DNA of 64,000 nucleotides from Microbacterium binotii (GTDB lineage: Bacteria; Actinomycetota; Actinomycetes; Actinomycetales; Microbacteriaceae), in contig NZ_CP090347.1 of assembly GCF_021398715.1 (NCBI RefSeq), positions 2,170,001 to 2,234,000 on the forward strand, read 5' to 3'. Made by a program: the position numbers and the translations under genes. Position 1 is the stretch's first letter. Each line of letters begins with the position of its first letter. Shown here piece by piece: positions 18,931-22,534 of this stretch. The notes beneath the pieces were generated by a model, which did no database searches, was not told where the DNA came from, and saw nothing but the letters and a program-made list of their open reading frames with translations.

Positions 18931-19908
18931 TCAGCGTGTGGTTCCGTGCACCTTGGGCAGGGCGCCGCCGGCGGCGGCGTTGCGGTCGGGACGGAAGTTG
19001 GAGAAATCGGCACCGGGGACGTCGCGCACCAGGGCGAGCTCGTCCTCGATGATGGCGGCCTCCCACTCCTCCGGCCCCACGAGGGGCAGGCGGACGCGGG
19101 GGCTGGAGATGCGGCCGAGGCCGTGCAGGATGTACTTCGCGCTCACCGTGCCCGGCACGTGCGTCATGACGGCGCGTACGAGCGGCTCGAGCCGCTTGTG
19201 CTCGGCGGTCGCCGTGGCGAGATCGCCGCGGTTCACCGCATCCACGATCGCGCGATAAGGGGTGGCCGCGATGTTGGCGGTGACGCCGATGAGTCCCGAC
19301 GCTCCGATCGCGAGGTGCGGCAGAACGTTCGCGTCATCGCCCGAGAAGTACATGAGATCGGTCTGGTTGAGCACGCGGCTCACTTCGCTGAAGTCACCCT
19401 TCGCATCCTTGATCGCCAGGATGTTGGGATGCTTGGCGAGGCGCAGGATCGTCTCGTACTTGATCGGCACCCCGGTGCGACCCGGGATGTCGTAGAGGAT
19501 GACGGGCAGATCCGTCGCGTCTGCCACGAGGCGGAAGTGCGTGAGGATGCCGGCCTGGGTCGGCTTGTTGTAGTACGGCGTGACGATCATGATGCCGTCC
19601 GCGCCGGCCTTCTCGCTCGCCCGGTACAGCTCGATCGCGTGCGCCGTCTCGTTCGAGCCGCCGCCGGTGATGATCTTCGCCCGGCCGGACGCGACGCTCT
19701 TCCCGACCTCGACGAGGCGGAGCTTCTCCGGGTCGGTCAGCGTCGAGGTCTCCCCCGTCGTACCGGTGACCACGATGCCGTCGGCGCCCGCGGTGATGAC
19801 GTCGTCGATGTGCTTCTCGACAGCGGGCCAATCGACCTCGCCGTCGGCGGTCATGGGGGTGACCAGCGCGACGAGCACCTGTCCGAAGGGGTTGCCCGTG
19901 TGCGTCAT
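18931..19908 (-). CDS. dapA: 4-hydroxy-tetrahydrodipicolinate synthase
   Basis: DapA condenses pyruvate with aspartate semialdehyde, the first step of the diaminopimelate/lysine branch. The 325-residue protein has the Schiff-base lysine Lys167 (AIKDAKGD), Tyr139, the GTTGE segment at 49-53 and PYYNKPTQ at 111-118. TAGCCT at 19915-19920 lies 6 nt before the ATG without a ribosome binding site, so a leaderless mRNA is likely. dapF and dapB are in the same window on the same strand. Confidence 0.96.
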   Translation of the reverse strand: MTHTGNPFGQVLVALVTPMTADGEVDWPAVEKHIDDVITAGADGIVVTGTTGETSTLTDPEKLRLVEVGKSVASGRAKIITGGGSNETAHAIELYRASEKAGADGIMIVTPYYNKPTQAGILTHFRLVADATDLPVILYDIPGRTGVPIKYETILRLAKHPNILAIKDAKGDFSEVSRVLNQTDLMYFSGDDANVLPHLAIGASGLIGVTANIAATPYRAIVDAVNRGDLATATAEHKRLEPLVRAVMTHVPGTVSAKYILHGLGRISSPRVRLPLVGPEEWEAAIIEDELALVRDVPGADFSNFRPDRNAAAGGALPKVHGTTR

Positions 19909-19984
19909 GCTCCCAGGCTATCGGTTCCGGCCGCTGCGGCCCCACCGGATGAGCGTCGATCGCCCTCCGCGCGCGGATGCGGCA

Positions 19985-20063
19985 ACATCTGCACGAGCGG
20001 TGGGGCTGGTGTGCCCCCGCGCGGCGTGTGAGACAACGGGAGACTCGGCGACCGTGCAGATGT
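19985..20063. repeat. 79-bp palindromic-end repeat, copy 1
   Basis: The element begins ACATCTGCACG and ends with its exact reverse complement CGTGCAGATGT. It lies 4 bp from the stop codon of the DUF559 gene. A second 79-bp copy in the same orientation lies upstream of that gene (21033-21111). The first 30 bases of the two copies agree at 27 positions, and all three differences are G/T. The middles have diverged. Confidence 0.75.
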
Positions 20064-20067
20064 CACG

Positions 20068-20904
20068 TCACGAGAGGGAGGCGATCCGCATCCGTGCCAA
20101 CGTCGCCGAGATCGCGCGCTGGACCCGCCGCCAGTCGTGCACGATGAGCGCATAGTCGAAGCGCAGGGTCTCGTAGCCCTGGGCCGCGGCCTCGGCATCA
20201 CGCACCAGGTCTCTGTGGCGCAGGCTCGCCCCTTCGTGGTTGAGGCGACCGTCGACCTCGATGATGAGCCTTCCGTCGACCACGAAGTCCACGACTCCGA
20301 TCCCTCGAATGAGCACCTGGCGCTCCAGGGAGATGCCGAGCAGACGCAATCGCAACCTGAGGAGCGATTCCAGTCCGCTGTCGGCGTCCGGACGAGCGAG
20401 GTCGACGAGCCACCGGAACCGGGCAGGGAGGCGCCTTCGCACTTCGTCCCGGTCCGATCGGTCGAGCAGCCCCAGGCGCCAGGCCGATTCGAACGCCGCG
20501 AAGAAGCTCTCTGCGCCGAGGCAGGCGGCCAGCTGGACGAGCGCCTGCGTGATCGAGACCATGCCGAACGCGGAGGCCCCTGCATCCCGGTGCACGACGC
20601 AGGCGCACGGCGGATGCGGATGCCCACGACCATTCGACCCCAGCCACACGTGCAGGGTCGGTATCGCCTCGAGCACCCACACGCCACGGACGCGAAGCGC
20701 CGCCGCGCAGGCGAGCTCCCCGCCGTGGGCCGCCGCGTCCCGGACATCGGGGGGCGCGCCGAGCGCGTACACGCCCTTCCGCACGCGCTCGACAGCTCCG
20801 CGAGCGGCAGCGCGGGCGAGGGCGCTGCGGGATGCGCCGAGCTGGCCGGCACGCGCGACACCGCCCAGCGCGCGGAGGCGGTCGGCGATCTTCACGGCGT
20901 CCAT
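20068..20904 (-). CDS. DUF559 endonuclease-like protein with AbiEi-type N-terminal domain
   Basis: The 278-residue protein has an N-terminal winged-helix-like region (IADRLRALGGVARAGQLGAS, then GAVERVRKGVYALG). This resembles AbiEi-type antitoxin or transcription-factor domains. The C-terminal DUF559/Vsr-like domain has a PD-(D/E)XK-like core: Glu179 (GLESLLRLRL), Asp206 (VVDFVVDG), Glu216 and Asp218 (IIEVDGRLNH). DNA binding or cleavage is inferred from the family. No toxin partner is adjacent. Both flanks carry related 79-bp palindromic repeats, so the gene may be an acquired unit or may bind those repeats. The start is the ATG at 20904; no clear ribosome binding site is seen. Confidence 0.72.
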   Translation of the reverse strand: MDAVKIADRLRALGGVARAGQLGASRSALARAAARGAVERVRKGVYALGAPPDVRDAAAHGGELACAAALRVRGVWVLEAIPTLHVWLGSNGRGHPHPPCACVVHRDAGASAFGMVSITQALVQLAACLGAESFFAAFESAWRLGLLDRSDRDEVRRRLPARFRWLVDLARPDADSGLESLLRLRLRLLGISLERQVLIRGIGVVDFVVDGRLIIEVDGRLNHEGASLRHRDLVRDAEAAAQGYETLRFDYALIVHDWRRVQRAISATLARMRIASLS

Positions 20905-21032
20905 GCGCCCACCCTCCGCGTCCGCGCGCGGGACCTGACGCTCCTGCGGCGGATGCGGGACGACTCACCGTTCGAGGCGTCGTGGGGAGGTTCGATCGAC
21001 CCTCTCACCGCCCACCGGCACGCCGCGACGCG

Positions 21033-21111
21033 ACATCTGCACGATCGGTGGTGCTGGTTTGCGCTGGTGCGACCCGTGTGGCGTCCGAGCGGCGATCCAC
21101 CGTGCACATGT
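21033..21111. repeat. 79-bp palindromic-end repeat, copy 2
   Basis: This copy begins ACATCTGCACG and ends CGTGCACATGT, an inverted repeat with one mismatch. It has the same length and orientation as the copy at 19985-20063. It lies about 130 bp before the start codon of the DUF559 gene and about 118 bp before the divergent NUDIX gene, so it could act on both promoters. Confidence 0.75.
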
Positions 21112-21228
21112 CGCGCCGAGATGCTGGGCGACAGCTCGCAGGCGCACGAGAACCTGAGCGCCGACGCACGCGATGGCGCGCACCCGCACCGCACGCACTC
21201 ATCACCGGCACCGCCGTAGGGTGGCGGC

Positions 21229-21768
21229 ATGGTCTGGCACACGTCCGCAAGCCGCGTCGTCTACGAGAACCGCTGGATCCGGGTGCGGGAGGACGACGTC
21301 ACCGGCCCCGACGGCGAGGGGATCTACGGTGTCGTCGAGATGCAGCATCCGGCGGTGTTCATCGTGGCGCTGGACGACGAGGACAACGTGTGTCTCGTGT
21401 CCGTGCAGCGCTACACCACCGGCCCCTCGTGGGAGGTGCCGGCGGGCGGAAGCGACGGGGAGGAGCCGCTGCTCGCCGCTCAGCGCGAGTTGGCCGAGGA
21501 GACGGGCCTGGTGGCGGCGGAGTGGGAACACCTCGGCAGCATGAATGCGCTGAACGGGATCGCCGTCGCGCCCGAGCACGTGTTCCTCGCACGGGGCCTC
21601 TCCCCCGCACCGGACAGCGCGCTCGCCCAGACGGAAGAAGGCATCGACGAGGTCGTCCGGGTGCCGTTCGCCGAGGCGCTCACGATGGTCGGGGACGGCC
21701 GCATCAGCGATGGCGAGACCGTCGCGGCGCTCGCGTACGCCGGCATTCGGCTCGGTCGTTTCGTCTGA
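21229..21768 (+). CDS. NUDIX hydrolase (ADP-ribose pyrophosphatase-like)
   Basis: The 179-residue protein has a NUDIX box at about 73-95 (GGSDGEEPLLAAQ, then RELAEETGL); the REL-EE-G core is intact. VPAGG before the box and the N-terminal RVVYENRWIRVREDDV fit ADP-ribose/nucleoside-diphosphate-sugar pyrophosphatases. The exact substrate is not predictable. TAGGGT at 21217-21222 lies 6 nt before the ATG without a Shine-Dalgarno sequence. It converges with the SDR gene one base apart. Confidence 0.88.
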   Translation: MVWHTSASRVVYENRWIRVREDDVTGPDGEGIYGVVEMQHPAVFIVALDDEDNVCLVSVQRYTTGPSWEVPAGGSDGEEPLLAAQRELAEETGLVAAEWEHLGSMNALNGIAVAPEHVFLARGLSPAPDSALAQTEEGIDEVVRVPFAEALTMVGDGRISDGETVAALAYAGIRLGRFV

Positions 21769-21769
21769 C

Positions 21770-22534
21770 TCAGCGGCCTCGCCGACCGAGTCTCGACGCG
21801 AGTCGGTCGGGCGCGATGCTCGCCAGTGCGGCGAGCGCGCGGTAGCGAAGAGTCGGCACCGAAACGGCCTTGCCGCGTGCCGCATCGTGCAGCGACGGGG
21901 TGACCACGTCAGCGGGGTTCAACCACATCCAGCCGGCGACGCCCTCCTGACCGGGCGCGAGACCGAGCCGCTCGTGGAAGTTCGTGTGCGTGTAGCCCGG
22001 ACACACCGCCGTGACCGTGACGCCGCGCGGCGCATAGGACGCATCGGCCCAGCGGCTGAACGACACGAGCCACAGCTTCGATGCTCCGTAGGTCGAGCGC
22101 GGGATGAACGCGGCGATGGAAGCGACGTTCAGGATGCGGCCGCTGCCGCGCGCGAGCATCGGACCGAGCGCCGCGTGCATGAGCCGCATCGGCACCTCGA
22201 CGTGCACGGCGAGATGCCGCACCTCGTCCTCGATGTCGTTGCGCTCGAAGTCGAGGGGAAGACCGAACCCCGCGTTGTTGACGAGGATCTCCACAGGCCG
22301 CTCCGGATCCGTCGACCGCTCGACGACCGTCTGCCGCTCCCCCGCATCCAGCAGGTCCGCGACGAGGACCTCCGCCGCGACACCGGATGCGGCACGCACC
22401 GCGCGGGCGACCGACTCGAGCGCCTCGGCGTCGCGCCCGACCAGCACGACGTCGGCGCCGCGCGCGGCGAGCTGCCTGGCGTACTCGGCGCCGAGTCCGG
22501 AACTGGCACCGGTGATGAGAGCCGTCTTCGCCAT
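21770..22534 (-). CDS. Short-chain dehydrogenase/reductase
   Basis: The 254-residue protein has the Rossmann motif TGASSGLG at 8-15, the NNAG motif (EILVNNAGFG) and the catalytic Ser plus YGASK. The motif VTAVCPGYTHTNFHERLG suits classical SDRs of the KR/DltE type. NADP(H) use is likely from the GRD segment after beta-2. The substrate is unknown. TAGGCT at 22541-22546 is 6 nt upstream of the ATG and forms a back-to-back promoter with the DUF6578 gene. Confidence 0.9.
   Translation of the reverse strand: MAKTALITGASSGLGAEYARQLAARGADVVLVGRDAEALESVARAVRAASGVAAEVLVADLLDAGERQTVVERSTDPERPVEILVNNAGFGLPLDFERNDIEDEVRHLAVHVEVPMRLMHAALGPMLARGSGRILNVASIAAFIPRSTYGASKLWLVSFSRWADASYAPRGVTVTAVCPGYTHTNFHERLGLAPGQEGVAGWMWLNPADVVTPSLHDAARGKAVSVPTLRYRALAALASIAPDRLASRLGRRGR

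Follow-up and report, generated by a model that had tools for sequence, protein, structure and literature searches.

Palindromic elements paired around AbiEi-Vsr (DUF559) nuclease genes suggest an undescribed partnership of a nuclease and its own repeats

A gene for an AbiEi-Vsr (DUF559) nuclease lies between two palindromic elements, a layout that related bacteria often show with other palindromes, and this points to a so far undescribed pairing of a nuclease with repeats of its own. We regard it as fairly probable that the nuclease and its cognate palindromes constitute one nuclease-plus-repeat system, which works like REPIN/RAYT with an unrelated enzyme. The gene lies in a 64,000-nt stretch (hereafter the window) of the Microbacterium binotii genome (3.29 Mb, single contig), which is designated G000 among the 119 genomes of the genus (G-numbers; L-numbers denote loci), and its surroundings are summarized in Table 1. 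The original prediction described two 79-bp copies of equal length and orientation, which agree at 27 of 30 bases at one end, and we confirmed both of them as placed, 1048 bp apart. Their position held, while the conserved unit turned out to be 85 bp long, as an alignment of 12 copies in the window's genome contained no gap over 85 columns. The unit can be approximated as GCGAC-R-TCTGCACGA...TCGTGCAGAYGTCGC, with a conserved GGTGG.GC in the 5' arm and a variable middle. The inverted ends described for each copy were recovered as well, except that the second copy (21033-21111) ends with CGTGCACATGT and thus deviates at a single base from a perfect inverse of its own start.

Table 1. Features of the nuclease locus and its neighbours (positions in the window).
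Feature	Position	Strand	Basis or remark
dapA (DHDPS)	18931..19908	-	Pfam PF00701; neighbour, outside the unit
Downstream palindromic element	19982..20066	+	starts 1 nt past the nuclease stop codon; model E 5.7e-17
Outer half-site TGCACGA, downstream element	19990..19996	+	
Inverted outer half-site TGCACG, downstream element	20053..20058	-	half-site pair spans 69 bp
AbiEi_4 + DUF559 (Vsr-like PD-(D/E)XK) protein, 278 aa	20068..20904	-	Pfam
Upstream palindromic element	21030..21114	+	125 nt before the nuclease start codon; model E 6.5e-19
Outer half-site TGCACGA, upstream element	21038..21044	+	
Inverted outer half-site TGCACG, upstream element	21101..21106	-	half-site pair spans 69 bp
NUDIX hydrolase	21229..21768	+	Pfam PF00293; neighbour on the other side, outside the unit

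The lone protein between the repeats had been described as carrying a winged-helix N-terminus and a PD-(D/E)XK-like core, and the Pfam search agreed with this description: the protein matched PF04480 (DUF559; E 5.6e-10) and PF13338 (AbiEi_4; E 1.8e-7), above the cut-off, and no other family. Residues 1-172 resemble AbiEi, and the nuclease fold is like those of Vsr and the homing endonuclease I-Bth0305I. Like Vsr/DUF559 nucleases, the window protein combines a Vsr-like fold with a core of conserved acidic residues and histidines; the residues of the nuclease core are invariant across 60 sequences and presumably catalytic. Relatives of the protein were detected in 114 of the 119 genomes (E 1e-15). 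The DUF559-type protein appeared to be chromosomal, with a single weak match in 72,556 plasmid records and none in 50,697 phage records. No AbiEii-type toxin was found by Pfam among the four nearest neighbours, which encode DHDPS, a NUDIX hydrolase, RNase J and a short-chain dehydrogenase.

The arrangement recurs at other DUF559 loci. We drew 117 loci: the 30 top-ranking ones, three sets of lower identity (20, 15 and 5 loci), 13 named loci and 34 found via Pfam in eight genomes. Removal of 12 without a match to the window protein and of two with too short a flank left 103 loci, 98 of them distinct. At most of the best 30, two palindromic repeats of ~75-95 bp, with a sequence specific to the locus, were found upstream of the start and behind the stop. 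The pair score was at least 22 at 24 of the 29 best loci scored (one of the 30 was dropped for its short contig), whereas distal windows, 1.0-1.4 kb out, scored 21 at most. A null drawn from flanks of different loci was set aside, as shared neighbour genes put 11% of its pairs at 30 or above, and distal windows and 318 non-DUF559 genes were used instead. Paired flank repeats over the threshold were found at 63 of the 98 distinct loci, compared with five of the 318 control genes, and amounted to 44/60 loci at 50% or higher identity to the window protein, 14/19 at 44-50% and 5/19 below. In 46 of the 63 paired loci, 85-130 bp separate the end of the upstream copy from the start codon (median 105), and in 45 the downstream copy starts within 65 bp past the stop codon. 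Nevertheless, the 35 loci without an over-threshold pair weigh against the proposed system. The 98 loci form 21 groups by shared neighbour DNA, and many of them have thus long resided at one fixed place. Five control genes passed: three (in L292, L212 and L213) are adjacent to DUF559, one (L065) lies between tandem paralogues, and the last is in L131. In L292, L212 and L213, a 294-aa gene beside DUF559 has similar repeats on both sides, and a third copy seems to lie beyond. At L065 (637-3448), the tandem genes, which resemble each other and encode 361 and 388 aa, are near a dispersed copy, and the gene in the middle looks sigma-factor-like by eye.

Whether other DUF559 genes carry repeats had been put forward as a check, and the answer is twofold. 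Five DUF559 matches were found in the window's genome at E 0.01, four of them over the Pfam cut-off, and only the window's own gene has the window's repeat family nearby; the other four all lack it, which weighs against a tight tie between gene and repeat. Many DUF559 genes are paired with palindromes of their own, different from locus to locus, as at the 63 of 98 loci counted above. For instance, the second DUF559 gene of this genome (L055), which falls in the lowest identity band, is preceded at 94 bp and followed at 11 bp by TCTCGGAG palindromes of its own.

Direct repeats inside the elements were concentrated at a lag of 19 bp. Among 94 elements from 47 loci with a pair score of at least 30, this lag gave 747 matched bases, compared with 11 in shuffles and 48 for the next highest of the lags reported in the range of 14-29 bp. 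In several families (G034, G066, L055, L274 and L286), each arm has two half-sites 19 bp apart. Inside the window's elements this spacing is absent and the inner and outer half-sites differ, so that they represent another type. By locus, the lag-19 signal was found in 27/60 (50% or higher identity), 2/19 (44-50%) and 6/19 (below), as opposed to 8/240 control genes; it was not raised in the 44-50% band, which weighs against the proposed system. A constant spacing combined with a variable sequence would be expected if the elements are bound by a protein assembly of fixed shape. We dropped an equal outer span as a sign of common geometry, as the window and G034 families, both with a span of 69 bp, share the TGCACGA core. 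In other families the outer span is 66-85 bp and varies with the half-site start that is chosen, and therefore only the 19-bp lag is used here as evidence.

The elements are also dispersed over the genome. The arm pattern with a gap of 40-65 nt occurs at three sites in the window's genome, whereas the reversed control pattern occurs at none. With a sequence-only model, 14 copies stood out clearly, all at E 6.6e-8 or better: the pair at the gene and 12 elsewhere. The genome-wide search proposed with the original prediction thus verified the family and brought up 12 further copies away from the gene, which the original prediction had not noticed. Eleven of the 12 dispersed copies lie between genes predicted with a simple purpose-written gene finder, and the twelfth extends 31 nt into the end of a gene; by eye, seven have co-directional, three divergent and two convergent neighbours. 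About a third of the chromosome (1.01-2.19 Mb of contig C1) has no clear copies, and the same applies to 1.06-2.30 Mb of C1 in G035. This relative, ~90% identical in DNA, has 13 copies, 12 of them intergenic and 10 at sites shared with the window's genome by flanking synteny. In G034, G042, G107 and G054, all 18 copies viewed are intergenic. A wider model found relatives of the window's elements in 11 of the 119 genomes, G000 included, with outer arms that vary from genome to genome. From eight of the genomes, 40 copies were taken from model matches without net change in length and trimmed to 85 nt; these align without gaps despite the variable middle, while some weaker matches of the model differ by 1-2 nt in length. 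At two places in G054, several elements are packed within a few hundred bases of one intergenic region: three in L270 (C1:924586-925042), two of which are nearly identical, and two in L271 (C1:2938587-2938833).

Dispersed copies resemble the flanks of the resident gene in several genomes. Three dispersed copies viewed in G054 carry AGTCGTCGGACC, as do the flanks of the resident gene, with a less exact second arm, and two viewed in G093 carry CTGCATGAYC, as does one flank of the resident gene. The G034-type repeat was found in 10 of the 119 genomes and is absent from the window's genome. G034 and G042 have it at both DUF559 flanks and at five dispersed places each, and in G078 it lies on either side of a gene broken across two contigs. 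Of the G034-type dispersed copies viewed in G034, G042 and G107, seven of 13 lie, by eye, between convergent genes, two of them being one orthologous site. In another lineage, the flanks carry CTCGGAG in G000 and G035, and CTCGCAG in G044, where one dispersed CTCGCAG copy was also found. Two observations weigh against such a correspondence being strict or against copying by the nuclease. G107 has seven G034-type copies, and the only one viewed of its three DUF559 matches (L187) is flanked differently; G035 and G044 retain 13 and 16 copies, respectively, despite a decayed DUF559 gene at dapA. The G034-type elements of G107 include those at L252, L253, L268 and L269, two of which are at the same junctions as in G042 and perhaps reflect a past change of specificity.

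The unit differs in presence among relatives. Among 117 genomes with a dapA match, 30 dapA loci were listed: a whole DUF559 gene lies upstream in two, a remnant in one, and none was found within 1.5 kb in 27. In 11 of these 27, dapA and the NUDIX gene are 56-115 bp apart and the unit is absent; two have ~500 bp of other DNA before the NUDIX gene, and 14 have no NUDIX gene within 1.5 kb, so that the site is not comparable. The empty sites sought in relatives therefore do occur, the unit being missing from a directly adjacent dapA-NUDIX pair in 11 of the 30 listed loci. At the same junction in G035, DUF559 is reduced to a remnant and the repeats are lost or reduced to a fragment, which was also found by the model, and G044 has a short DUF559 remnant between two still recognizable elements at dapA. 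By themselves, the state of this junction in G035 and the lack of the family at the other four DUF559 genes of the window's genome would suggest repeats with no particular link to the gene.

Three dispersed copies differ in presence between the window's genome and G035 at readable sites. One is in frame within a LysE gene in G035 (L134:3679-4389), which encodes 236 aa compared with 206 aa in the window's genome, with full LysE matches in both. The others are an intergenic copy found only in the window's genome (L067:3881-4118; spacer of 238 vs 55 nt) and one found only in G035 (L129:3980-4122; 154 vs 26 nt); these two sit in neighbouring spacers ~1 kb apart. The length differences at the three sites (90, 183 and 128 nt) all exceed the 85-bp unit and no target-site duplication is readable, and deletion is thus as possible as insertion; two further differing sites are too rearranged to judge. 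For the LysE copy we favour insertion, because the protein without the element has what we take to be the ordinary length of the family (the LysE profile in Pfam has 193 positions).

The two flanks of one locus are more alike than corresponding flanks of different genomes. Among 78 loci in the eight largest context groups, the upstream and downstream flanks of the same locus had a median score of 28, compared with 11 for upstream flanks of the same context in other genomes (483 pairs), the score within the locus being higher than the between-genome median of that locus in 69 of the 78 (Mann-Whitney p 8e-21, with pairs that are not independent). The contrast was weaker for downstream flanks of other genomes (median 14; p 2e-6; higher within the locus in 52 of 78). 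In the dapA group, to which the window's locus belongs, the order was reversed, with a median of 30.5 between downstream flanks and 19 within the locus; the downstream window there includes DNA beside dapA. Repeat similarity correlated weakly with protein relatedness, at a Spearman coefficient of 0.25-0.26 for the middle and nuclease parts and 0.12 for the winged helix, which added no correlation once the rest was accounted for (partial -0.11), and the reading domain is thus not singled out.

We propose that the gene and its two flanking palindromes may form one resident unit. Proteins of the AbiEi type bind to inverted repeats located at the promoter of their own gene, which makes binding of the elements by the window protein the natural reading; the AbiEi homologue Rv2827c, for instance, binds four inverted repeats upstream of its own gene (PMC7319586). 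The AbiEi-like N-terminal part would bind the half-sites of the ~85-bp element, probably with two or four protomers per element, and the upstream copy likely has a second role as the operator through which the protein controls itself. Nicking or cutting at or between bound elements would then fall to the Vsr/EDxHD-like nuclease at the C-terminus; the target of I-Bth0305I is nearly 60 bp long (PMC3943268). Repair or strand transfer could subsequently copy the element between sites, which would keep the flanks and dispersed copies alike in a genome while the sequence drifts fast between species. Occasionally a new copy would land at a new, mostly intergenic site, and the gene itself would move rarely. 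We infer the binding, the cutting, the direction of the differences in presence, and cutting as the cause of copying. The original prediction had offered binding sites of the protein or a small mobile or selfish unit as alternatives, and taken jointly these readings are supported by the paired flanks of DUF559 genes and by the gain/loss differences.

The main rival is a function of the elements as operators only, which we consider rather unlikely. An orphan AbiEi-type regulator would control itself and a small regulon, the nuclease would have another job, such as mismatch repair, and would not move the repeats, and the flanks would be alike through co-evolution of operators and protein. AbiEi and Rv2827c indeed repress their own promoters through inverted repeats, four in the case of Rv2827c (PMC7319586), and a Caulobacter DUF559 Vsr-like protein is argued to work in mismatch repair (PMC12907096). 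The AbiEi-like residues 1-172, the similar start distance of the upstream element (46 of 63 paired loci) and the 10 of 12 dispersed copies in the window's genome that are co-directional or divergent by eye, and therefore upstream of at least one gene, fit the same picture. Nevertheless, self-control alone needs no copy behind the gene, no copies between convergent genes, and no flanks and dispersed copies that change together, whereas cutting by the nuclease followed by copying repair would give all three. In 45 of the 63 paired loci, the second copy follows the stop codon at no more than 65 bp; convergent genes, between which a promoter would not be expected, surround seven of the 13 G034-type copies, albeit only two of 12 in the window's genome; and one copy is inside a coding gene (LysE in G035).

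Host recombination after an old duplication appears improbable as the whole explanation. Under this scenario gene conversion keeps an inert pair alike, and some other transposase moves the dispersed copies, which belong to an unrelated miniature element. Direct repeats ~1 kb apart commonly undergo gene conversion, and in G107 no DUF559 flank at the loci viewed matches the copies present; nevertheless, there would be no reason for DUF559 genes specifically to be flanked, in at least seven chromosomal contexts, and both the recurrent 19-bp spacing with differing sequences and the arms common to the flanks and dispersed copies of a genome would be left over. Far less probable still are transcription terminators or RNA hairpins selected around a small gene. 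The arms are inverted and many G034-type dispersed copies are between convergent genes, but no T run follows the arms of either window copy, and single-strand folding of both was no better than that of shuffles (z -0.50 and -0.68). When 40 copies were folded to a consensus, pairing was confined to the outer arms and the covariation term was small; the variable middle of these copies shows no net change in length. An Rfam search of positions 19000-22200 yielded one match, below the threshold, and an RNA function of the elements was dropped on these grounds. Parallel change of both arms was likewise dropped as a proof of a hairpin, as one protein reading both half-sites predicts the same. Chance likeness of two GC-rich intergenic stretches deserves hardly any credit: the DNA is GC-rich and contains many short matches of two copies, but 14 copies reach E 6.6e-8 or better, and 24 of 29 loci score at least 22, in contrast to 21 at most in the distal controls.

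Among the systems compared, the unit works most like a REPtron, but its enzyme and the tag show that it is not one, and its nearest neighbours show that it is not a toxin-antitoxin module. As in REPIN/RAYT, the repeats are short, palindromic and mostly intergenic, a chromosomal enzyme gene is flanked by copies, each enzyme lineage has its own repeat sequence, and the enzyme is nearly absent from plasmids and phages (PMC3116915, PMC8266576); transposition of REPINs by a RAYT dimer has been proposed (PMC3116915). Flanking of the enzyme gene by its own repeat was found here at 63 of 98 loci, and dispersal in intergenic space for 11 of the 12 copies in G000. In contrast, the RAYT enzyme is a Y1/HUH tyrosine transposase rather than an AbiEi plus Vsr-like PD-(D/E)XK protein, and REPIN/RAYT repeats are present in hundreds, whereas the window-type elements of ~85 bp have about ten copies. 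The GTAG (or CGTC) tag at one end of REPIN/RAYT repeats is not a feature of the window-type copies: GTAG occurs anywhere in two of 40, and CGTC at columns 80-83 in 15 of 40. TIRtrons also consist of a gene closely flanked by repeats, possibly unrelated between loci (PMC3733652), but combine a tyrosine transposase with terminal inverted repeats, whereas here an unrelated enzyme is flanked by elements that are palindromes in themselves. The type IV antitoxins AbiEi and Rv2827c share the winged-helix DNA-binding domain (PF13338) and the inverted repeats upstream; they differ in forming an operon with an AbiEii toxin, of which there is none among the four neighbours here, where a nuclease domain is fused instead, and the window-type repeats are, unlike theirs, also downstream and dispersed. 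In contrast to EDxHD homing endonucleases such as I-Bth0305I, the window gene is not in an intron or in its own recognition site, and whole elements lie on both sides. The accessible text of open-access papers yielded none linking DUF559 to palindromic repeats.

To our knowledge, RAYT-REPIN pairs are the best known example in which an enzyme encoded on the chromosome coexists with a population of short palindromes. At somewhat less than even odds, the system may extend to a widespread class of chromosomal elements of Microbacteriaceae whose multi-half-site palindromes are spread and homogenized by their own AbiEi-Vsr (DUF559) nuclease, with fast-changing recognition on a recurrent 19-bp architecture, as a second, independently evolved nuclease-palindrome partnership beside RAYT-REPIN. 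If this is genuinely the case, many DUF559 proteins labelled as toxin-antitoxin antitoxins or repair enzymes are repeat-associated recombinases, and a common protein family so far named only by DUF559, AbiEi or Vsr labels would be assigned a function. A second case with an unrelated nuclease would provide a new testing ground for the question of why RAYT-REPIN pairs persist; it would also show that the partnership of an enzyme and palindromes evolves repeatedly. The naturally varied pairs of protein and site may provide material for learning the code by which the elements are read. As for the protein itself, H85, H97, C100, C102 and H105 (residues 85-105, in its middle part) are conserved and have the look of a possible metal site.
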